From: Synergistota bacterium
GTDB taxonomy: Bacteria; Synergistota; Synergistia; Synergistales; Aminobacteriaceae
Length of the DNA stretch: 49,417 nucleotides
NCBI GenBank assembly: GCA_022704435.1
Contig: JAKJGK010000003.1
Coordinates: forward strand, 1 to 49,417
Direction of reading: 5' to 3'
Of the stretch, positions 12,850-23,037 are shown one piece after another. The notes beneath the pieces are model-generated. The model ran no database searches. It saw nothing but the letters and a program-made list of their open reading frames with translations, and was not told the origin of the DNA. The number at the start of each line of letters is the position of its first letter. Position 1 is the stretch's first letter. A program made the translations under genes and the position numbers.

Positions 12850-12864
12850 AAAGGGGTGATCTGT

Positions 12865-13869
12865 GTGTGTGCGAAGGCTGCGCGCGGCGGGGAGGGGACC
12901 TCTCCGTCGAAGTACGGCAAGGAGCTGCTGGCCGGCTTCTACAGGACGATGACGACCATCAGGCACTTCGAGCAGACGGTGGAGAAGTGCTTCCTCGAGG
13001 GGGAGATCCCCGGGTTCGTCCACCTGTACATAGGCGAGGAGGCCGTGGCGGCTGGGGTGATGGCCAACCTGCGCGACTCGGACTACATCCAGAGCACGCA
13101 CCGCGGGCACGGCCATGCGATAGCCAAGGGGGCCGACCTCAAGAGGATGATGGCCGAGATATTCGGCAAGAGCACCGGGAGCTGCAAGGGCAAGGGAGGC
13201 TCGATGCACATCGCCGACTTCGGCGTGGGCATGCTGGGGGCCAACGGCGTCGTGGGCGGCGGCTTCACAATAGCGACCGGGGCCGCGCTGGCGCACAAGA
13301 TGCAGGGGACGGACGGGGTGGCGGTCGCCTTCTTCGGGGACGGCGCGTCCAACCGCGGGACCTTCCACGAGGCGGCCAACATGGCCGCGGCGTGGGGACT
13401 GCCCGTGATCTTCGTCTGCGAGAACAACAAATGGGCGTCGACCACGCCCTACCGGACGACGACCTCGGTGGACCACATCGCCGACCGGGCCGCGGGCTAC
13501 GGGATGCCGGGGGTGGTGGTCGACGGCAACGACGTCTTCGCGGTGTACGAGGGGGCGAGGTCCCTCGTGGAGAGGGCGCGCCGCGGGGAGGGCCCCGCGC
13601 TGCTCGAGTGCAAGACCTATCGCATCAAGGGTCACTTCGTGGGGGACCCGGAGAAGTACCGCACGAAGGAGGAGGTCAGGAAAGTCTTCGAGGAGACCGA
13701 CCCGATCCCGCGCTTCGAGAGCGCTGTAGTCAAGGCGAGGGCCCTGACCAGGAAGGAGCTCGACGCCATCGACGGAGAGGCCCGCGAGGCTGTTCGCCTG
13801 GCGCTTGAGTTCGCCCGCACCTCCCCGGAGCCGGAGGAGTCGGCCCTGTTCGAGGGCCTTTACGTTTAA
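12865..13869 (+). CDS. acoA: Acetoin/pyruvate-type 2-oxoacid dehydrogenase E1 component, alpha subunit
   Basis: A 334-residue thiamine-diphosphate-dependent subunit. The ThDP motif begins with GDGASNRGTFHEAANM (about 158-173) and ends in the NN of FVCENNKWAS about 28 residues later. STHRGHGHAIAKGAD and GSMHIAD, common to AcoA/PdhA proteins, are present. With AcoB it decarboxylates or cleaves its substrate and passes the acyl group to lipoate on E2. The family is AcoA-like rather than the larger AceE type; acetoin is the likely substrate, but pyruvate or branched 2-oxoacids cannot be excluded. GTG 12865 fits the AAAGGGG site (8-nt spacing) better than the in-frame GTG 12856, which overlaps it. 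The beta-subunit gene follows 13 nt later. Confidence 0.92.
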   Translation: MCAKAARGGEGTSPSKYGKELLAGFYRTMTTIRHFEQTVEKCFLEGEIPGFVHLYIGEEAVAAGVMANLRDSDYIQSTHRGHGHAIAKGADLKRMMAEIFGKSTGSCKGKGGSMHIADFGVGMLGANGVVGGGFTIATGAALAHKMQGTDGVAVAFFGDGASNRGTFHEAANMAAAWGLPVIFVCENNKWASTTPYRTTTSVDHIADRAAGYGMPGVVVDGNDVFAVYEGARSLVERARRGEGPALLECKTYRIKGHFVGDPEKYRTKEEVRKVFEETDPIPRFESAVVKARALTRKELDAIDGEAREAVRLALEFARTSPEPEESALFEGLYV

Positions 13870-13882
13870 GGCGGTGGACGTG

Positions 13883-14854
13883 ATGAGTACGATCACTTTT
13901 GCTCAGGCAACGCTCGATGCTATGACAGAGGAGATGGCCCGGGACGAGCGCGTGTTCGTCATGGGCGAGGATATTGCCAGGCAGGGCGGGATATTCGGCC
14001 AGTTCAAGGGGCTGGCCGACCGGTTCGGCACCGGGAGGGTGATGGACACGCCCATCAGCGAGACCGCCATAGTCGGCGCCTGCATCGGCTCGGCGCTGGC
14101 GGGGATGAGGCCGGTGGCGGACATGCACTTCGCCGACTTCATAGGCGTCTGCTTCGACGAGGTGCTGAACCAGATGGCCAAGATCTACTACATGTTCGGG
14201 GGGCAGAAGTCCATCCCGATGGTGCTGCGCGCACCGGACGGCCTCGTGAACCAGGCCGCCGCGCAGCACTCGCAGTCGCTGGAGGCCTTCTTCCTGCACA
14301 TACCGGGGCTGAAGGTGGTCGCTCCGTCGAACCCGGCGGACGCCAAGGGGCTGCTCAAGTCGGCGATCCGCGACGACAACCCGGTCATCTATTTCGAGCA
14401 CAAGGCCCTGTTCTCGACGAAGGGGGAGGTCCCCGACGGAGACCACCTCGTCCCGATAGGCAGGGCGAACGTGGTCAGGAAGGGAAGCGACGTCACCCTG
14501 GTGTCCTACTCCATGACGATGAACCACTGCGTCAAGGCGGCGGAGATACTGGCAGGCGAGGGGATCGATGTTGAGCTGATAGACCTTCGGACCATCTCGC
14601 CGCTCGACGTCGGGACCATCCTGGAGTCCGTGGCCAGAACCACCCGGCTGGTCATAGCCCACGAGGCGGTGAAGCAGGGGGGAGTGGGCGCGGAGCTGGC
14701 GGCCATCGTAGCGGAGGAGGCGATCGACTGCCTCGACGCCCCGATCGTGCGTGTCGGTGCCCCATTCACGCCTGTTCCCTTCGCCCGCCCGCTGGAGCGG
14801 GCCTACCGCGTGACCCCGGAGAAGATCGCCGAGGCGGTTCGTTCGGTGATGTAG
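13883..14854 (+). CDS. acoB: Acetoin/pyruvate-type 2-oxoacid dehydrogenase E1 component, beta subunit
   Basis: A 323-residue transketolase-like beta subunit. It starts MSTITFAQATLDAMTEEMAR and shows VFVMGEDIARQGGIFG, DTPISETAIVGACIGSALAG and the substrate-channel region GLVNQAAAQHSQSLEAFF. The C-terminal half has the transketolase C domain (VELIDLRTISPLDVGTI). It forms the E1 heterotetramer with AcoA. ATG 13883 is preceded by AAGGCGG. The next genes are the TRAP transporter, not acoC, which is unusual because E1 beta is normally followed by E2. A 112-nt gap separates it from dctP. Confidence 0.93.
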   Translation: MSTITFAQATLDAMTEEMARDERVFVMGEDIARQGGIFGQFKGLADRFGTGRVMDTPISETAIVGACIGSALAGMRPVADMHFADFIGVCFDEVLNQMAKIYYMFGGQKSIPMVLRAPDGLVNQAAAQHSQSLEAFFLHIPGLKVVAPSNPADAKGLLKSAIRDDNPVIYFEHKALFSTKGEVPDGDHLVPIGRANVVRKGSDVTLVSYSMTMNHCVKAAEILAGEGIDVELIDLRTISPLDVGTILESVARTTRLVIAHEAVKQGGVGAELAAIVAEEAIDCLDAPIVRVGAPFTPVPFARPLERAYRVTPEKIAEAVRSVM

Positions 14855-14966
14855 GGCGTTTTACGGCGCCGGACCGGCCGAGGAGGTGAGTCGGGGGGCG
14901 ACGGGGGGCGCCGAGGGCATATAGTCGTATCAAGTGTCGGAAATCTCAATCTCAGGAGGCGTAAAG

Positions 14967-16046
14967 ATGAAAAAACTGGTTGCTGCAATGCTGCTGGCCG
15001 CGGCCCTGTGCGCGTTCACTGTCCCGGCCCTCGCGGAGTACAAGGCCGAGTACAAGCTGGACATAGTCCCGAGCCTCACGACCGCATGGGGGATGGGCGC
15101 CACCTACTTCACCGACCTGGTCAGGGAGAGGAGCGACGGAAGGATAAACATCAAGGTCTACCCCAACTCCCAGCTCACCACCGGGGCTCAGACCAACGCG
15201 TTCATGCTCGTCCGCAACGGGACGATCGACTTCGCCGTGCAGTCGTCGATCAACTACTCGCCGCAGATAGTCGAGCTCAACCTGTTCGCCCTCCCCTTCT
15301 TCATCGCCAACCAGCCCGACAAGTACGTCGCGATGGACGCGATCAAGGCGGGCGAGTCCGGCAAGCTGGTCGTCAAGGCCGTGGAGGACAAGGGAGTCAA
15401 GTTCCTGGCGTGGGGCGAGAACGGCTTCCGCGAGCTGACCAACTCGAAGAGGGAGATCCGCTCCCCCAAGGACATGGAGGGAATGAAGATCCGCGTGGTC
15501 GGCAGCCCGATCTTCCTGGACGCGTTCAGGGCCATCGGGGCCAACCCCCTGACCATGAACTGGAGCGACACGATGGCCGCGATACAGCAGGGAGTGGTGG
15601 ACGGGCAGGAGAACCCGATCAGCACCTTCTACCCGGTCAAGATTCATGAGTACCACAAGTACGTCACCGACTGGCACTACGTGATCGACCCGACCATGTA
15701 CGTCGTCAACCCGGCCGTATGGAAGACCTTCTCCGAGGACGACCAGAAGCTTATCCAGGAGGCGGCCGAGGAGGCCGGCAAGTACATGGTGGCGCTGGCG
15801 CGCATAAGCCTGGACGACGGGACGGCCTACAAGTACCTCGAGAGCATCGGCAAGCTGCCCGAGATCACCGACTGGTACAAGGAGCTGGCCAACGTCGGGA
15901 TGACCGTGAGCATCCTCACGCCGGAGGAGACCAGGGCGTTCGCCGAGAAGACCGCGCCCGTGGTCGACGAGTGGCGCTCCAAGATAGGCGAGGAGATAGT
16001 GGCGGCGGCCGAGGCCGACATGGCCGCGGCCGCGGCCTCGAAGTAG
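14967..16046 (+). CDS. dctP: TRAP transporter substrate-binding protein, DctP family
   Basis: A 359-residue periplasmic binding protein with a clear signal peptide (MKKLVAAMLLAAALCAFTVP, cleavage near ALA-E). DctP features include PNSQLTTGAQ, the LPFFIANQPDKYVAMD segment and KIRVVGSPIFLDAFRAIGAN, in which Arg176 is the expected carboxylate-binding arginine. It thus likely binds an organic acid, and the setting inside aco genes suggests a 2-oxoacid or an acetoin-related compound (inference). The start is secure: AGGAGG (14954-14959) is 7 nt before ATG. Transcription could continue from acoB, and the 112-nt gap may hold a further promoter, but I see only a weak TATAGT. Confidence 0.95.
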   Translation: MKKLVAAMLLAAALCAFTVPALAEYKAEYKLDIVPSLTTAWGMGATYFTDLVRERSDGRINIKVYPNSQLTTGAQTNAFMLVRNGTIDFAVQSSINYSPQIVELNLFALPFFIANQPDKYVAMDAIKAGESGKLVVKAVEDKGVKFLAWGENGFRELTNSKREIRSPKDMEGMKIRVVGSPIFLDAFRAIGANPLTMNWSDTMAAIQQGVVDGQENPISTFYPVKIHEYHKYVTDWHYVIDPTMYVVNPAVWKTFSEDDQKLIQEAAEEAGKYMVALARISLDDGTAYKYLESIGKLPEITDWYKELANVGMTVSILTPEETRAFAEKTAPVVDEWRSKIGEEIVAAAEADMAAAAASK

Positions 16047-16056
16047 AGATTGCCCC

Positions 16057-16087
16057 GGGGCAGGCCGAGGACCTCCTTGCCTGCCCC
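16057..16087 (+). other. Stem-loop between dctP and dctQ
   Basis: Perfect 9-bp arms GGGGCAGGC (16057-16065) and GCCTGCCCC (16079-16087) with a 13-nt loop, 10 nt after the dctP stop. No U-run follows, so it is more likely an mRNA-stabilising or attenuating element that lets the binding protein be made in excess over the permeases. Confidence 0.6.
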
Positions 16088-16169
16088 TTCAGAACGCCCG
16101 GCTCCCGCGCGCTCCCCGACCGCCGGCGGGTGCCGGGGTCCATTCTTTGACCAGAAGGGATTGGCCTCA

Positions 16170-16652
16170 ATGATAAAAAAAGTGTTCGACAACTTCGAGG
16201 AGCTGCTGGGGTCCGTCATCCTCGTCGTGATGGCGGTGATAACGTTCGCCAACGTCGTAACCCGGTACTTCATCCTCTACGCGCTGGCCTTCACCGAGGA
16301 GGTCACCATCTACCTGTTCGTCTGGCTGGTGATGCTGGGGACCGCCATAGCTTTCAAGAAGGGGGCCAACCTGAGCATGACCTTCGTCTACGACAAGCTC
16401 CCCGCCAGGGGGAAGAAGCTCTGCTTCTTCGCGTCCACCGCCCTGTCCCTGGCCTTCTTCGCTCTGCTCGCCTACCTGGGGTACGTGCAGGTCTCGGACG
16501 AGATAGCCCTGTCCGTGACGTCGCCGTCGCTTGCCATTCCCATGTGGTGGTACACCGTGTCGCTGCCCGTCTTCTCCGTCCTGATAATCGTACGCATCAT
16601 GCAGGCGGCGGCGGAGACCGTGCGGGGCGACGAATTCCGGAGGGGGTGCTGA
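16170..16652 (+). CDS. dctQ: TRAP transporter small permease, DctQ family
   Basis: A 160-residue membrane protein with four hydrophobic helices (about 10-32, 44-63, 83-105 and 124-146) and the family features FANVVTRYFILYALAFTEE and LFVWLVMLGTAIAFKKGAN. It pairs with the large permease DctM in sodium-driven uptake. AGAAGGG lies about 10 nt before ATG 16170. The next gene, dctM, begins 1 nt after the stop. Confidence 0.93.
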   Translation: MIKKVFDNFEELLGSVILVVMAVITFANVVTRYFILYALAFTEEVTIYLFVWLVMLGTAIAFKKGANLSMTFVYDKLPARGKKLCFFASTALSLAFFALLAYLGYVQVSDEIALSVTSPSLAIPMWWYTVSLPVFSVLIIVRIMQAAAETVRGDEFRRGC

Positions 16653-16653
16653 C

Positions 16654-17898
16654 ATGGAAACGCTGATTCACGAGCCCGCCTTCTGGACTATAGCCCTCTT
16701 CATCATACCGCTGCTGATCAGGGTGCCCATCGCGGTGGCGCTGGGGTCCGCGGCGATATTCGTCGTGTGGAACTGGGACCTCGGCTACCAGATGCTCTCC
16801 TACAGCTTCTTCTCCGGGATCGCAAAATTTCCCCTGCTGGCGATACCGTTCTTCATCCTGGCCGGGGTCATCATGGAGAAGGTCGGGATAGCCGAGCGCA
16901 TCATAGCCCTGATAAAGCAGCTCGTCGGCGACATGACCGGCGGGCTTGCGGTGGCCACCGTCATAGTGGCGGCCTTCTGGGGGGCCGTCAGCGGCTCCGG
17001 ACCGGCCACGGTCGCCGCCCTCGGGCTCATCCTGATCCCCGGAATGGCGGAGGCCGGGTACGACAAGGCCTTCGCGGCGGCGGTGGTCTCCGTCTCGGCC
17101 GGGCTGGCGATAATAATCCCGCCGAGCATCTCGTTCATCGTCTACGGCGACATCATGCAGCAGTCGGTCGGCACCCTGTTCGCCGCAGGCGTCCTCCCGG
17201 GGATAGTCGTTGCGGCCTTCCTGTGCGTCTCCGTCTGGCTGGTCAGCAGGGTCCACGGGTACAGGGGCGCTCCCAGGGGGTCGGCCTCCGAGGTGCTGCG
17301 CGCCCTCAGGGACGCCTTCTGGGGACTGTTCACCCCCGTGATCATCCTGGGGGGCATCTACGGCGGGATTTTCACCCCGACCGAGGCGGCGGCCGTGGCG
17401 GTCTTCTACGGCCTGTTCGTGGGAGTGTTCATCTACCGCACCCTCACGGTCCGAATCCTGTATGAAATACTGAGCGAGACCGTGGCGGCCACGTCGGTGG
17501 TGATGATCGTCGTCACGTGCGCGGGGCTATACTCCTGGCTCGGGGCCACGGTCGGGCTGATAGACAAGATCGCGGCGCTGCTGCTCGGCATATCGGAGAA
17601 CCCCGTGGTCATACTGCTGATGATAAACATAATCCTGCTGTTCGCCGGGATGCTGCTCGACGCCATATCCATAGCCTACGTCTTCCTGCCCATACTGGCG
17701 CCTGTGATCATGGCCTTCGGATGGGACCCGATCTGGTTCGGGGTCATGATGACGGTCAACATGGCGATAGGACAGGTGACCCCGCCTGTGGCGGTAAATC
17801 TCGCTACTCCTGCCCCGTATGATGGGCATGATGTAGCCCTAGCCCGGCGGCTTTCGCGATCCTTGATGAGGAGGGGTACCTTATGGCTTCACCAGTGA
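16654..17898 (+). CDS. dctM: TRAP transporter large permease DctM, C-terminally truncated
   Basis: The protein has 414 residues but only about the first 383 match DctM: LAIPFFILAGVIMEKVGIAE, VSGSGPATVAALG, VSAGLAIIIPPSISFIVYG, GIFTPTEAAAVAVFYG and the final conserved VNMAIGQVTPPVAVNL. After AVNL the sequence changes abruptly to about 31 unrelated, arginine-rich residues, and the frame runs 16 nt into acoC. Normal DctM proteins continue about 45 more residues with a last membrane helix. The missing part is not found in the other two frames, so this is not a simple frameshift. DctM forms the transport path, so function may be impaired. A deletion that joined dctM to the acoC upstream region fits best; an assembly error is the alternative. 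Confidence 0.9.
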   Translation: METLIHEPAFWTIALFIIPLLIRVPIAVALGSAAIFVVWNWDLGYQMLSYSFFSGIAKFPLLAIPFFILAGVIMEKVGIAERIIALIKQLVGDMTGGLAVATVIVAAFWGAVSGSGPATVAALGLILIPGMAEAGYDKAFAAAVVSVSAGLAIIIPPSISFIVYGDIMQQSVGTLFAAGVLPGIVVAAFLCVSVWLVSRVHGYRGAPRGSASEVLRALRDAFWGLFTPVIILGGIYGGIFTPTEAAAVAVFYGLFVGVFIYRTLTVRILYEILSETVAATSVVMIVVTCAGLYSWLGATVGLIDKIAALLLGISENPVVILLMINIILLFAGMLLDAISIAYVFLPILAPVIMAFGWDPIWFGVMMTVNMAIGQVTPPVAVNLATPAPYDGHDVALARRLSRSLMRRGTLWLHQ

Positions 17899-19163
17899 CA
17901 ATGCCCAAGCTCGGGCTGACAATGAACAGCGGAACCGTCTCCAGGTGGGGCGCGAAGGAGGGAGAGCCCGTTCGCAAGGGCAACCTCCTGGTGGTTATCG
18001 CCACGGACAAGCTCACCTTCGACGTTGAGGCGCCGGAGGACGGGGTGCTGCTGAGGGTGCTGGTCCCGGAGGGAGGGGAGGCCCCGGTAGGCGCCGTGAT
18101 CGCGTACATCGGCGCGGAGGGGGAGGTCCTCGCCGATGTCGAGGCATCGTCCCCGCAGCCGTCGAAGGCTGCCGCGCCCTCGCCGGCCCGGGCTTCAGCC
18201 GCCGTAGCCGCGCCTGCGGCGAGCATCGTGCGCGCCACGCCGCTCGCCCGCAGGATCGCCCGCGAGAGGGGGCTGGACCTCGCGATGATCGAGGGCACCG
18301 GCCCCGATGGCAGACGCCTCCGCAGGGACGTCGAGGCGGCGGAGCGGGTGAAGGCCAGCCCCGTCGCGGCGAGGATGGCGGCCGACCTGGGGGTCGACCT
18401 GGCCTCGGCGAGGTCACAGGGGCGCGTCATGAAGGAGGACGTGCTCCGGGCCGCTGCGGAGCGCCCGTCCGCCGGGGACGTCGAGGTCCCCCTGACTCCG
18501 ATGCGCAGGGTGATAGCCGAGAGGATGAGCCTCAGCAGCTCCACCATCCCGTCGGTGACGTACAACGTCGACGCGGACTTCACCGAACTGTCCGCCGCAA
18601 GGGAGAGGCTCAGGGAGGGGGCGGCCCGCGCCGGGGTGAAGATCTCGTTCAACCACCTGCTGATGAGGATCTGCGCCGCAGCCCTGGTCGAGTTCCCGAT
18701 GGCCAACTCCTCCTTCGGCGCGGACTCGATCACCATGCACCGGGATGTGAACATCGGGCTGGCGGTGTCGGTGGAGGGGGGGCTGCTGGTCCCCAACGTC
18801 AAGTCGGTCCAGGACAAGGGGCTGCTCCAGATCGCCCGCGAGACCGAGGAGCTGGTGAGCCGCGCCAGGGAGGGGACCCTGCCGCTCGACGCGGTGCAGG
18901 GGGGCACCTTCACCATCACCAACCTGGGCATGTTCGGGACGAGCAGCTTCACGCCGGTGATCAACCCGCCGGAGGCCTGCATCCTCGGGCTGAACGCCGT
19001 GGCCGACAGGCCGGTGGCGATCGGCGGCCAGGTGGTGGTGCGCCCGATGACGACCCTCTCGCTGTCGGCCGACCACAGGATCCTCGACGGCGCCGAGGCC
19101 GCGCGCTTCCTCGCGCGCATCAGAGAGCTGGTCGAGAACCCGTGGCTCCTGCTTCTAAATTGA
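17883..19163 (+). CDS. acoC: 2-oxoacid/acetoin dehydrogenase E2, dihydrolipoamide acyltransferase
   Basis: A 426-residue E2 enzyme. The lipoyl domain (about 3-80) has lipoyl-lysine Lys43 in ATDKLTFDVEAPEDG. An Ala/Pro linker follows. Two subunit-binding domains stand in tandem: about 117-153 (RATPLARRIARERGLDLAMI) and about 157-191 (KASPVAARMAADLGVDLASA, GRVMKEDV). The catalytic domain (about 200-426) ends with SADHRILDGAEAARF (His398, Asp402). E2 forms the complex core, taking acyl groups from AcoAB and passing them to CoA. GAGGAGGGG lies close before ATG. The gene starts 16 nt inside the end of dctM. One subunit-binding domain is usual in Gram-negative E2s; two is noteworthy. Confidence 0.94.
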   Translation: MASPVTMPKLGLTMNSGTVSRWGAKEGEPVRKGNLLVVIATDKLTFDVEAPEDGVLLRVLVPEGGEAPVGAVIAYIGAEGEVLADVEASSPQPSKAAAPSPARASAAVAAPAASIVRATPLARRIARERGLDLAMIEGTGPDGRRLRRDVEAAERVKASPVAARMAADLGVDLASARSQGRVMKEDVLRAAAERPSAGDVEVPLTPMRRVIAERMSLSSSTIPSVTYNVDADFTELSAARERLREGAARAGVKISFNHLLMRICAAALVEFPMANSSFGADSITMHRDVNIGLAVSVEGGLLVPNVKSVQDKGLLQIARETEELVSRAREGTLPLDAVQGGTFTITNLGMFGTSSFTPVINPPEACILGLNAVADRPVAIGGQVVVRPMTTLSLSADHRILDGAEAARFLARIRELVENPWLLLLN

Positions 19164-19173
19164 GGACCGAGGT

Positions 19174-20568
19174 ATGAGCGCGAAGAGAGTGGCGGTTATA
19201 GGCGCCGGCCCCGGCGGGTACGTCGCCGCAATACGGGCCGCGCAGCTCGGCGCGGACGTGACGGTCGTGGAGAGGGGCGCCGTCGGGGGGACCTGTCTCA
19301 ACGTCGGATGCATCCCGACCAAGGCGATGCTGCACGCTGCGGAGCTGTACGCGCAGGCCCGGGAGGGCGCGGCCTTCGGGGTCGTCGCCAAGGGGGTCTC
19401 GCTGGACTGGGGGGCCCTCATGGAGCGGAAGAGGGCCGTGGTCGACCAGCTCGTCGCAGGCGTGCGAACGCTGCTGAGCAGCAACCGCGTCAGGCTGATC
19501 GAGGGGGAGGCGTCGTTCGAGACGCCGCGCGATCTGTCCGTGCGGAGGGCTGACGGCACCGCGGAGCGAGTGGAGGCCGACGCGACGATAGTGGCCGCCG
19601 GGTCCGCCACCGTGATCCCTCCCGTGCCCGGCATAGACCTCGACGGAGTGATCACCAGCACGGAGGCCCTGTCGCTGGAGGCGCCCCCGAAGTCCATCGC
19701 GGTGCTGGGGGGCGGGGTCATAGGGCTGGAGTTCGCGTCCCTCTTCTCCTCCCTGGGCGCGAGCGTCGCCGTCGTCGAGATGCTGCCGGAGATACTGCCG
19801 ACGATGGACGCGGAGATCGCCGGAATCCTGAGGGGTGCTCTGGCCAGGAGGGGCGTTTCCTTCCACCTGGGCTCGAGGATTTCCGAGGTCGCGAGGAGCG
19901 GTGGTGACCTGGTCGTGCGCGTGGAGACCCCGTCCGGCCCGACGACCCTGCGAGCCGAGAAGCTGCTGGTCGCGGCGGGCAGGCGCCCGGTATCGGAGGG
20001 GCTCGGGCTGGAGCGGATCGGGGTCGCGACGGAGCGCGGCAGGATCAAGGTGGACTCGCGCATGAGGACCGGGGTCGAGGGGGTGTACGCCGTGGGCGAC
20101 TGCGCCTCCCGCATAATGCTGGCCCACGTCGCCTCCCGCGAGGGGGAGGTGGCGGCGGAGAACATCATGGGCGCACCCGTCGTCATGGACTACAAGACAG
20201 TGCCGAGCGTGGTCTACACGAGCCCGGAGGCGGCCTCCGCCGGATTGTCGGAGGATGAGGCCCGGCGCTCCGGCCTCAGCGTGAGGGTCGGCCGGTTCCC
20301 GATGTCCGCCAACGGCAGGAGCCTCATCGCGAACCAGGGCGACGGGATGGTGAAGTACGTGGTGGACGAGAAGTACGGCGAGATAGTAGGCGTCCACATG
20401 GTGGGGCCGAGCGCGTCCGAGCTCGTCGCCCAGTCCTGCCTCGCGCTCAGGCTGGAGTGCACGGTCGACGAGCTGATCACCACGATTCACGCCCACCCGA
20501 CCGTGAGCGAGGCGCTGCGCGAGGCCGCGGCTGCGACGAGAGGGGCGGCGGTGAACCTGCCTGCCTAG
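19174..20568 (+). CDS. acoL: Dihydrolipoamide dehydrogenase (E3)
   Basis: A 464-residue FAD flavoprotein disulfide oxidoreductase that reoxidises the lipoyl groups of AcoC and reduces NAD+. Seen: FAD-binding VAVIGAGPGGYVAAI (6-20), redox-active disulfide GGTCLNVGCIPTK (Cys41, Cys46), NAD-binding IAVLGGGVIGLEFASLFSSL, YAVGDCASRIMLAHVAS and the C-terminal HAHPTVSEAL (His441, Glu446). No N-terminal lipoyl domain. It begins 10 nt after acoC with GAGGACCGAGGT directly upstream. It completes the complex AcoA-AcoB-AcoC-E3. The symbol follows operon context; by sequence alone lpdA would fit equally. Confidence 0.95.
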   Translation: MSAKRVAVIGAGPGGYVAAIRAAQLGADVTVVERGAVGGTCLNVGCIPTKAMLHAAELYAQAREGAAFGVVAKGVSLDWGALMERKRAVVDQLVAGVRTLLSSNRVRLIEGEASFETPRDLSVRRADGTAERVEADATIVAAGSATVIPPVPGIDLDGVITSTEALSLEAPPKSIAVLGGGVIGLEFASLFSSLGASVAVVEMLPEILPTMDAEIAGILRGALARRGVSFHLGSRISEVARSGGDLVVRVETPSGPTTLRAEKLLVAAGRRPVSEGLGLERIGVATERGRIKVDSRMRTGVEGVYAVGDCASRIMLAHVASREGEVAAENIMGAPVVMDYKTVPSVVYTSPEAASAGLSEDEARRSGLSVRVGRFPMSANGRSLIANQGDGMVKYVVDEKYGEIVGVHMVGPSASELVAQSCLALRLECTVDELITTIHAHPTVSEALREAAAATRGAAVNLPA

Positions 20569-20646: not shown

Positions 20647-22071
20647 ATGGACGGTATATTCCTGGGGGCGATTATCGGCGCGGCGGTCGCGCTGATTGCG
20701 GCGGTGCCGGTAGCGATCAGCATTCACTCAAGGCGCATGGCCGAGATCAGGCGGAAAGAGGCCCTGGCAAGGGCGGAGCTCGGCGAGAACATCGTCAGGC
20801 TCAACCTGCTTCTGGGGAACAGCTCCGCGGCGACGTTCATCTTCAGGGGCACCTGCTTCCTGGCCCTCAACCGCGCGACAGAGGGACTGACCGGCTACTC
20901 GAGGGAGGAGCTGCTGGCCATGAGAGGGCTTGAGCACTTCCACCCGGATGATCGCACAGCCGCGGTGGAGAGGTCGCTCGCCCGGGCCAGAGGGGAGCCT
21001 GTGCCGTCTTTCTACGAGATCAAGTTGCTGACCAAGGACGGAGAGACCAAGTGGGCCGAGTTCATAGCGCGGGACGTCATCTTCGACGGGCAGAGGTGCA
21101 CCGTCGGCAGCGCGTACGACGTCACGGAGCGAAACCGAATCAAGGACGAGCTGCGGCTCAGCGAGGCCAGGTACAAATTCCTGACGGAGAACATGAAGGA
21201 CGTGGTCTGGACGATCGACACCGAGACCATGCGCTTCGTCTACGTGAGCCCGTCGGTCGAGAGGCTCAGGGGGTACACCTCCGACGAGGTCCTCGCGGCT
21301 CCGATAGAGGACTCGCTCGCTCCGGAGGACTCGGCCAAAGTGAGCGAGCTGATACGCGCGGGGCACAGAAAGCTGTGCGAGGAGGAGGGGGCTCTCGGTG
21401 CCGCGTTTCACACCATGGAGCTGCTTCAGCCGCGCAAGGACGGCTCGCTCGTGTGGACCGAGACCATAGTCTCCTTCCAGAGAAACCCGATCAGCGGCAG
21501 GATGGAGCTGCACGGGGTGACCCGCGACATCTCCGAGCGCAAGGAGGCCCAGGCCAGGATGGCGGAGATGGCGCTGCACGATGCGCTCACCGGACTTCCC
21601 AACAGGAATCTGTTCTCCGACCGTCTCGCCCTGGCGATAGCGGCCTCCCGGCGTGAAGGCGCGCGGGCGGCGCTGCTCTTCCTCGACCTGGACAGGTTCA
21701 AGCCTATCAACGACACCTACGGGCACGCCTTCGGGGATCTGCTGCTGAAGCAGGTGGCCGGCAGGCTGACCGCCACCGTGAGGGGGGTGGACACGGTGGC
21801 GCGCATAGGCGGGGACGAGTTTCTCGTGCTGTTGCCGGGCGAGGGAGACGAGGGGGCCGCTGCCGCTGCGGACAGGCTTGTGGAGGCGGTGGGCAGGCCG
21901 TACCTGGTGGAGGGGCGTGATATCAGGATGTCCTGCAGCATCGGGATAGCGTTCCACCCGGACGATGCGCTTGGCGAGATCGAGCTCGTCAAGAACGCCG
22001 ACGAGGCGATGTACAGGGCCAAGCAGGCCGGCGGAGGGTGCTGGCGCATGTACGGGCAGCCGGGCTCATGA
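20647..22071 (+). CDS. Membrane-anchored PAS-PAS diguanylate cyclase
   Basis: A 474-residue protein: a hydrophobic N-terminal segment (about 4-26), PAS at about 50-165 (TFIFRGTCFLALNRATEGLT), PAS at about 172-300 (FVYVSPSVERLRGYTSDEV) and GGDEF at about 310-470. The catalytic signature is intact (RIGGDEF, about 386-392) and is preceded by the inhibitory-site motif RGVD five residues upstream, so an active cyclase making c-di-GMP with product inhibition is expected. GGAGGGCAAT precedes ATG. It follows the aco/TRAP cluster after 78 nt and ends in a 6-nt convergent overlap with lplA. Regulation by PAS ligands is unknown. Confidence 0.94.
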   Translation: MDGIFLGAIIGAAVALIAAVPVAISIHSRRMAEIRRKEALARAELGENIVRLNLLLGNSSAATFIFRGTCFLALNRATEGLTGYSREELLAMRGLEHFHPDDRTAAVERSLARARGEPVPSFYEIKLLTKDGETKWAEFIARDVIFDGQRCTVGSAYDVTERNRIKDELRLSEARYKFLTENMKDVVWTIDTETMRFVYVSPSVERLRGYTSDEVLAAPIEDSLAPEDSAKVSELIRAGHRKLCEEEGALGAAFHTMELLQPRKDGSLVWTETIVSFQRNPISGRMELHGVTRDISERKEAQARMAEMALHDALTGLPNRNLFSDRLALAIAASRREGARAALLFLDLDRFKPINDTYGHAFGDLLLKQVAGRLTATVRGVDTVARIGGDEFLVLLPGEGDEGAAAAADRLVEAVGRPYLVEGRDIRMSCSIGIAFHPDDALGEIELVKNADEAMYRAKQAGGGCWRMYGQPGS

Positions 22072-23037
22072 GAGCAGGAAGTCCAGAAACTCCTCCGCAT
22101 CGGCGCCGTTGAAGTGCCGCCCCGGAGGGAAGGCCGCCAGGGCCTCGCGCAGCGAGTCCTCCCGGTAGGTTAGCCCCTCCAGCGCCCTCTCGAACAGGTC
22201 GCGGTTATCCGGACCGAAGTAGTCGCCGAAGAACCGCGCGCTCACTATCACGCCGCTCGACACCTCCAGCAGGGCCTCGACCCTGCCCCAGGAAAAGCGC
22301 CTCTCCTTGCGCTCCGTGAAGCGGGGGGACTCCCCCCAGTTCCACTCCCACCTGTCGTACTTCTCGTCGCGCAGCCTCTCGACCTCGGTGACCCGCCAGG
22401 GCTCGATCTCCATCGGCGATGCCTCCGGCGCGCAGCCTCGCAGGGCCTCCACGAACTCCTCGACCGTGACCGGACTCGGCATCAGCGGCAGCAGGTTGGC
22501 GACGCGGCTCCGCACCGACGCGAACCCCTTCGACGCGAACTTCCCCTCGTCCACGCGCAGCGCGCCCTCAAGGGCCGACAAATTGGCGTCGAACAGGATG
22601 GCACCGTGGTGGAGCAGATGCCTCCCGTCCGAGTGCTGGGCGCTGCCGGAGACCTTTCGCCCCCCGGCGCACAGGTCGTTTCGACCGCTGATCTCCGCCC
22701 GTACCCCCAGGCGCGCGATCGCCTCGACCACGGGCCTGGCGAAGCGGGCGAAGTCGAAGGCGTCCCCCTCGCACGGCAGTATAAAGGAGTAGTTCACGTT
22801 GCCGAGGTCGTGGTAGACCGCCCCGCCCCCCGTCATCCTCCTGACGACCCTTATGCCGCGCTCCCGGACGAACGGGCGGTTCACCTCCCCCGCGGTGTTC
22901 TGGAAGCGACCCACTACGACCGACGGGTCGTTCCTCCACAGCATGAACACTCCCCCGTCGGGCGGGGAGCGGAACAGGTGCTCCTCGAGGGCCAGATTGA
23001 AAGCGGGGTCGTGCGAGACCTCTCCGACGAAGCGCAC
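22066..23037 (-). CDS. lplA: Lipoate-protein ligase A
   Basis: A 323-residue cytoplasmic ligase that activates lipoate with ATP and attaches it to lipoyl domains. The signature RRMTGGGAVYHDLGNVNYSF is complete, with upstream VVVGRFQNTAGEVN and downstream RNDLCAGGRKVSGSAQ containing the expected catalytic-lysine region. A C-terminal domain (about 240-323) is present, as in full-length bacterial LplA. The start is GTG 23037, preceded by a near-perfect GGAGGTGATC. It lies convergent to the cyclase and within about 3 kb of the E2 gene at 17883, whose Lys43 is a natural target (inference). Confidence 0.94.
   Translation of the reverse strand: MRFVGEVSHDPAFNLALEEHLFRSPPDGGVFMLWRNDPSVVVGRFQNTAGEVNRPFVRERGIRVVRRMTGGGAVYHDLGNVNYSFILPCEGDAFDFARFARPVVEAIARLGVRAEISGRNDLCAGGRKVSGSAQHSDGRHLLHHGAILFDANLSALEGALRVDEGKFASKGFASVRSRVANLLPLMPSPVTVEEFVEALRGCAPEASPMEIEPWRVTEVERLRDEKYDRWEWNWGESPRFTERKERRFSWGRVEALLEVSSGVIVSARFFGDYFGPDNRDLFERALEGLTYREDSLREALAAFPPGRHFNGADAEEFLDFLLS

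Follow-up and report, generated by a model that had tools for sequence, protein, structure and literature searches.

What has become of the large TRAP permease gene, dctM, at a locus where its reading frame departs from the family sequence and runs into the dehydrogenase gene downstream, and what does this mean for the operon that holds both genes? The locus lies in the window, a stretch of 49,417 nucleotides from a contig (JAKJGK010000003.1) of a Synergistota bacterium. Here, the plus-strand ORF at positions 16654-17898 encodes a 414-residue TRAP large permease DctM, whose match to PF06808 ends at profile position 376 of 413. An earlier note on this DNA had described a protein that follows DctM up to ...TPPVAVNL before changing to an unrelated, arginine-rich tail, and an overlap of 16 nt between its ORF and acoC. 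Both observations hold. The residues after ...TPPVAVNL, from about position 17802, read ATPAPYDGHDVALARRLSRSLMRRGTLWLHQ, carry a net charge of +3 and are unlike any DctM, with no hydrophobic 19-mer being found in the 31-residue tail, and the frameshifted ORF does not stop until 17898, overlapping the first 16 nt of the E2 gene (acoC), whose ATG begins at 17883. The window DctM passes both family profiles (331 bits for PF06808, cut-off 23.8; 372 bits for TIGR00786, cut-off 268) and keeps the twin-proline motifs of the sodium sites, namely PPS (residues 156-158) and TPP (residues 376-378). It is not a full-length permease, which comprises both transport-domain repeats, TM11b and TM12 included.

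The closest genome with the locus comes from the same genus and is 90% identical in DNA (G003). There, dctM is intact (432 aa), with the same E2 gene coming next, and 365 of the 382 residues of the conserved part are identical to those of the window DctM. BLASTN aligned the window up to 17801 with G003 contig C74 up to position 1559, and the window from 17798 onwards with C74 from position 1672. Both copies of the locus in another genome of the genus (G002) likewise contain the extra segment, in a full-length dctM directly before the E2 gene. A complete dctM followed by acoC, which the earlier note had proposed seeking in close strains, was thus found in both genomes, and base-level comparison with them supported the proposal of a deletion junction, with 116 bp gone from the window. 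The missing length is not a multiple of three, and 49 native residues are lost. Provided that the parent sequence kept the conserved residues on both sides, the microhomology at the join could extend to an upper bound of about 7 nt (AAATCTC). It had also been claimed that no remnant of the missing part exists in other frames. This is wrong, since the native end survives in the +1 frame, where ISLLLPRMMGMM-stop aligns with, and is orthologous to, the native end of the G003 DctM, ISLFLPRMMGMM-stop; at the DNA level, positions 17798-17866 are 87% identical to G003 (E=1.8e-17).

Table 1. Features of the dehydrogenase-TRAP operon and of the dctM junction, in window coordinates.
Feature	Position	Strand	Details
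E1 alpha subunit gene, intact	12856..13869	+	PF00676, E=1.7e-91
E1 beta subunit gene, intact	13880..14854	+	PF02779, PF02780
dctP, solute-binding protein gene, intact	14970..16046	+	PF03480, E=1.8e-68
dctQ, small permease gene, intact	16167..16652	+	PF04290, E=3.4e-30
dctM, intact conserved part	16654..17799	+	382 codons, up to ...TPPVAVN; PF06808, E=1.2e-98, profile 2-376/413
Deletion junction	17798..17801	+	116 bp of G003 absent; 4-nt microhomology ATCT
Native dctM 3' end remnant	17798..17836	+	+1 frame, ISLLLPRMMGMM-stop; translation and alignment
Frameshifted DctM tail	17803..17898	+	31 aa, rich in arginine, without a membrane helix; TGA stop codon, 17896-17898
dctM-acoC native spacer	17837..17882	+	46 bp, equal to G003 length; sequence and alignment
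2-oxoacid dehydrogenase E2 gene ("acoC"), intact	17883..19163	+	Pfam Biotin_lipoyl, E3_binding, 2-oxoacid_dh
lpd (E3) gene, intact	19174..20568	+	TIGR01350, 537 bits, above cut-off

Whether a DctM ending at this point could be a natural form was considered across 55 DctM ORFs from the compared loci, all of them distinct, complete and bearing a TPP motif that could be recognised. In 54 of these, 47-53 residues follow the motif; the window protein has 31 unrelated ones. Moreover, each of the best-scoring DctM matches listed, about 155 from 37 relatives, extends to profile positions 411-413. A family of DctM proteins that naturally ends here, the existence of which the earlier note had held would speak against its reading, was as such rejected: none of the other 54 DctMs and none of the best matches listed ends there, and the junction occurs in no other of the 83 family genomes.

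The structural consequence of the change was addressed by alignment to PpSiaM (7qha chain B), in which the join falls after PpSiaM residue 376, a few residues beyond G325, G366, T369 and M372, which belong to the second sodium site. Because the join aligns just past this site, the sodium-site motif is kept and most of TM11b, together with all or nearly all of TM12, is lost from the window DctM. The earlier statement that the C-terminus is gone hence stands; the extent given for it, namely the last membrane helix and about 45 residues, falls short, as the 49 missing residues also take in most of TM11b. In PpSiaM, TM10a/b, TM11a-b and TM12 make up the second transport repeat in the transport domain (Davies et al., PMC9971032). 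AlphaFold modelled the tail helices of the G003 protein (residues 381-430) with pLDDT values of 83-94 and the window tail with values of about 47-53; at the TPP motif, pLDDT was 57 in the window protein, as compared to 81 in that of G003. Given that the lost part consists of transport-domain helices, the window permease is probably dead, and loss of transport, one of the options raised earlier, appears from the structure to be the likeliest outcome.

Selection on the remaining part of the gene was also considered. The part of dctM shared with G003 gave a dN/dS value of 0.076, the lowest among the seven genes compared. Four outgroup copies served to polarise the changes, of which 2 amino-acid and 35 silent ones fell in the window lineage, and 5 and 26, respectively, in that of G003. 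No excess of amino-acid changes, and so no relaxed selection after the deletion, was detected in the window lineage. Because the conserved part of dctM shows strong purifying selection and no decay, the deletion either arose very recently, represents a minor allele or is an artefact.

Examination of the neighboring genes revealed all of them to be intact. The window E2 is 86% identical to that of G003, with one codon being the sole indel, and a Shine-Dalgarno-like sequence for acoC, GAGGAGGGG, is found at 17868-17876, inside the native spacer. The name acoC is not itself established, since neither the E1 alpha nor the E2 protein reached an NCBIfam equivalog cut-off; pyruvate, acetoin or another 2-oxoacid are possible substrates. 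The order E1alpha-E1beta-dctP-dctQ-dctM-E2-E3 is seen in G002, G006 and G025, with records from other Synergistales, Bacillota and Negativicutes showing it at lower identity. The G003 contig starts within dctQ, and the order visible there is dctQ-dctM-E2-E3. As judged from gene order, the dehydrogenase-TRAP arrangement is ancestral and not a product of the deletion. Placement of dctPQM between the E1 and E2 genes (window 12856-20568; loci L029-L031, L063, L064, L066, L075, L131 and L133) is conserved in Synergistaceae, Bacillota and Negativicutes, which suggests that the TRAP transporter imports the substrate of the dehydrogenase. In the literature searched, no usable account of a TRAP set within an acetoin or 2-oxoacid dehydrogenase operon was found.

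The same gene set also appears in an alternative order, with E1-E2(-E3) lying together upstream of dctPQM, at four loci of other Synergistaceae (L033, L041, L043 and L076). In G002, the assembly of which has an estimated contamination of 8%, the whole operon is present twice (L110 and L111). A second match resembling E2 was seen at L112, L113, L131 and L133, where it precedes the match to lpd by about 330-410 bp; a lipoyl domain fused to E3 may account for it. Two genes downstream of the window lpd, a lipoate-protein ligase A gene (22066-23037, minus strand) fits a lipoyl-dependent dehydrogenase and is conserved in G003. Eleven other strong DctM matches were seen in the window genome, and no second copy of the dehydrogenase-TRAP operon.

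The reading favored here, with a probability of about 0.75, is that an old and conserved 2-oxoacid dehydrogenase-TRAP operon has recently lost 116 bp out of frame, with the ends being joined at a short microhomology. It is unlikely, although deserving of real weight, that the chromosome instead holds a full-length dctM, with the junction stemming from a chimeric read, faulty gap closure or a rare variant chosen in a mixed population. The assembly is indeed fragmented (236 contigs), the junction is found in the window genome only, being absent from the other 82 family genomes, and an assembly error or minor strain variant would equally leave the shared part of dctM without decay. At the same time, the flanks share no more than about 7 nt, and neither a direct repeat of at least 8 nt with the spacing of the deletion nor an inverted repeat was detected in G003, leading to collapse at a repeat being rejected. 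A match of about 7 nt is too short for such collapse at usual k-mer lengths, and assemblers normally do not join at 4-7 nt unless a read spans the join. Also speaking against an artefact, the remaining contigs of the window genome do not carry the missing segment (its translocation elsewhere in the genome was rejected for the same reason), and the approximately 14 genes that the window has in common with G003 across 20 kb show no further break in frame. General frame errors in the assembly were likewise rejected: the two places with a suspiciously split match, about 31126 and about 26922, were explained by a pair of neighboring genes and by an undamaged gene on the minus strand. The G003 segment showed no unusual single-strand folding (z -0.81), and viral_contigs held no independent copy of the junction, as expected.

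Two further readings accept the junction and differ in what it did. That the shortened DctM still works, or is a new truncated functional form, is highly improbable. The retention of both sodium-site proline motifs (TPP at the second site among them), the still-open ORF and the low dN/dS in the conserved part would all fit such a protein, but TM12 and most of TM11b are gone, no other DctM considered ends at this point, the tail model has low confidence and the evidence for selection dates from before the deletion. Equally improbable is a truncated DctM with a positive tail that can assemble with DctQ and transport all the same, or that serves as a regulatory dominant-negative subunit, with the 16-nt overlap coupling its translation to that of acoC. 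The remaining reading, raised in the earlier note, had the deletion create a fused aco-TRAP operon, as could be imagined from a junction next to acoC that brings the two ORFs into overlap. This was rejected, because the same order is found in relatives with a full-length dctM, from G003, with its 46-bp spacer, to G002, G006, G025 and the records from other phyla.

Returning to the favored deletion, the 116 bp would have been lost by replication slippage or end-joining at the 4-nt (at most about 7-nt) microhomology, and the permease would be inactive because transport repeat II is incomplete. Translation of acoC would continue from its own intact ribosome-binding site, while ribosomes on the frameshifted ORF would read through that site and terminate 16 nt inside the E2 gene, where they formerly did so 46 nt before it. 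If the deletion is real, the strain should have lost substrate import by the dehydrogenase-linked TRAP transporter and kept the dehydrogenase. Since the surrounding operon is old and intact, the event is an ordinary and probably inactivating small mutation, provided that the junction does not stem from faulty assembly. It holds little significance beyond the window genome, where the annotated dctM should carry a frameshift flag.

In terms of known systems, the 382 conserved residues of the window protein, which take in the TPP motif at the second sodium site, align unbroken with TRAP DctM/SiaM proteins (PF06808, TIGR00786), including the solved PpSiaM (7qha) and isethionate DctMQ (9pym) structures, both of which the G003 orthologue matches nearly end to end. 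By contrast, the window protein lacks most of TM11b and all of TM12 and bears an unrelated 31-residue frameshifted tail. The operon resembles 2-oxoacid dehydrogenase operons of the pyruvate or acetoin type in presenting E1alpha, E1beta, E2 and E3 in order, and differs from these in the dctPQM set that lies between E1beta and E2, a trait shared with its relatives. The change in dctM, finally, resembles ordinary bacterial gene inactivation by a small microhomology deletion, with 116 bp lost, a 4-nt match at the join and the native 3' end out of frame; as compared to other small frameshifting deletions, the only oddity is that the frameshifted ORF enters the next gene.
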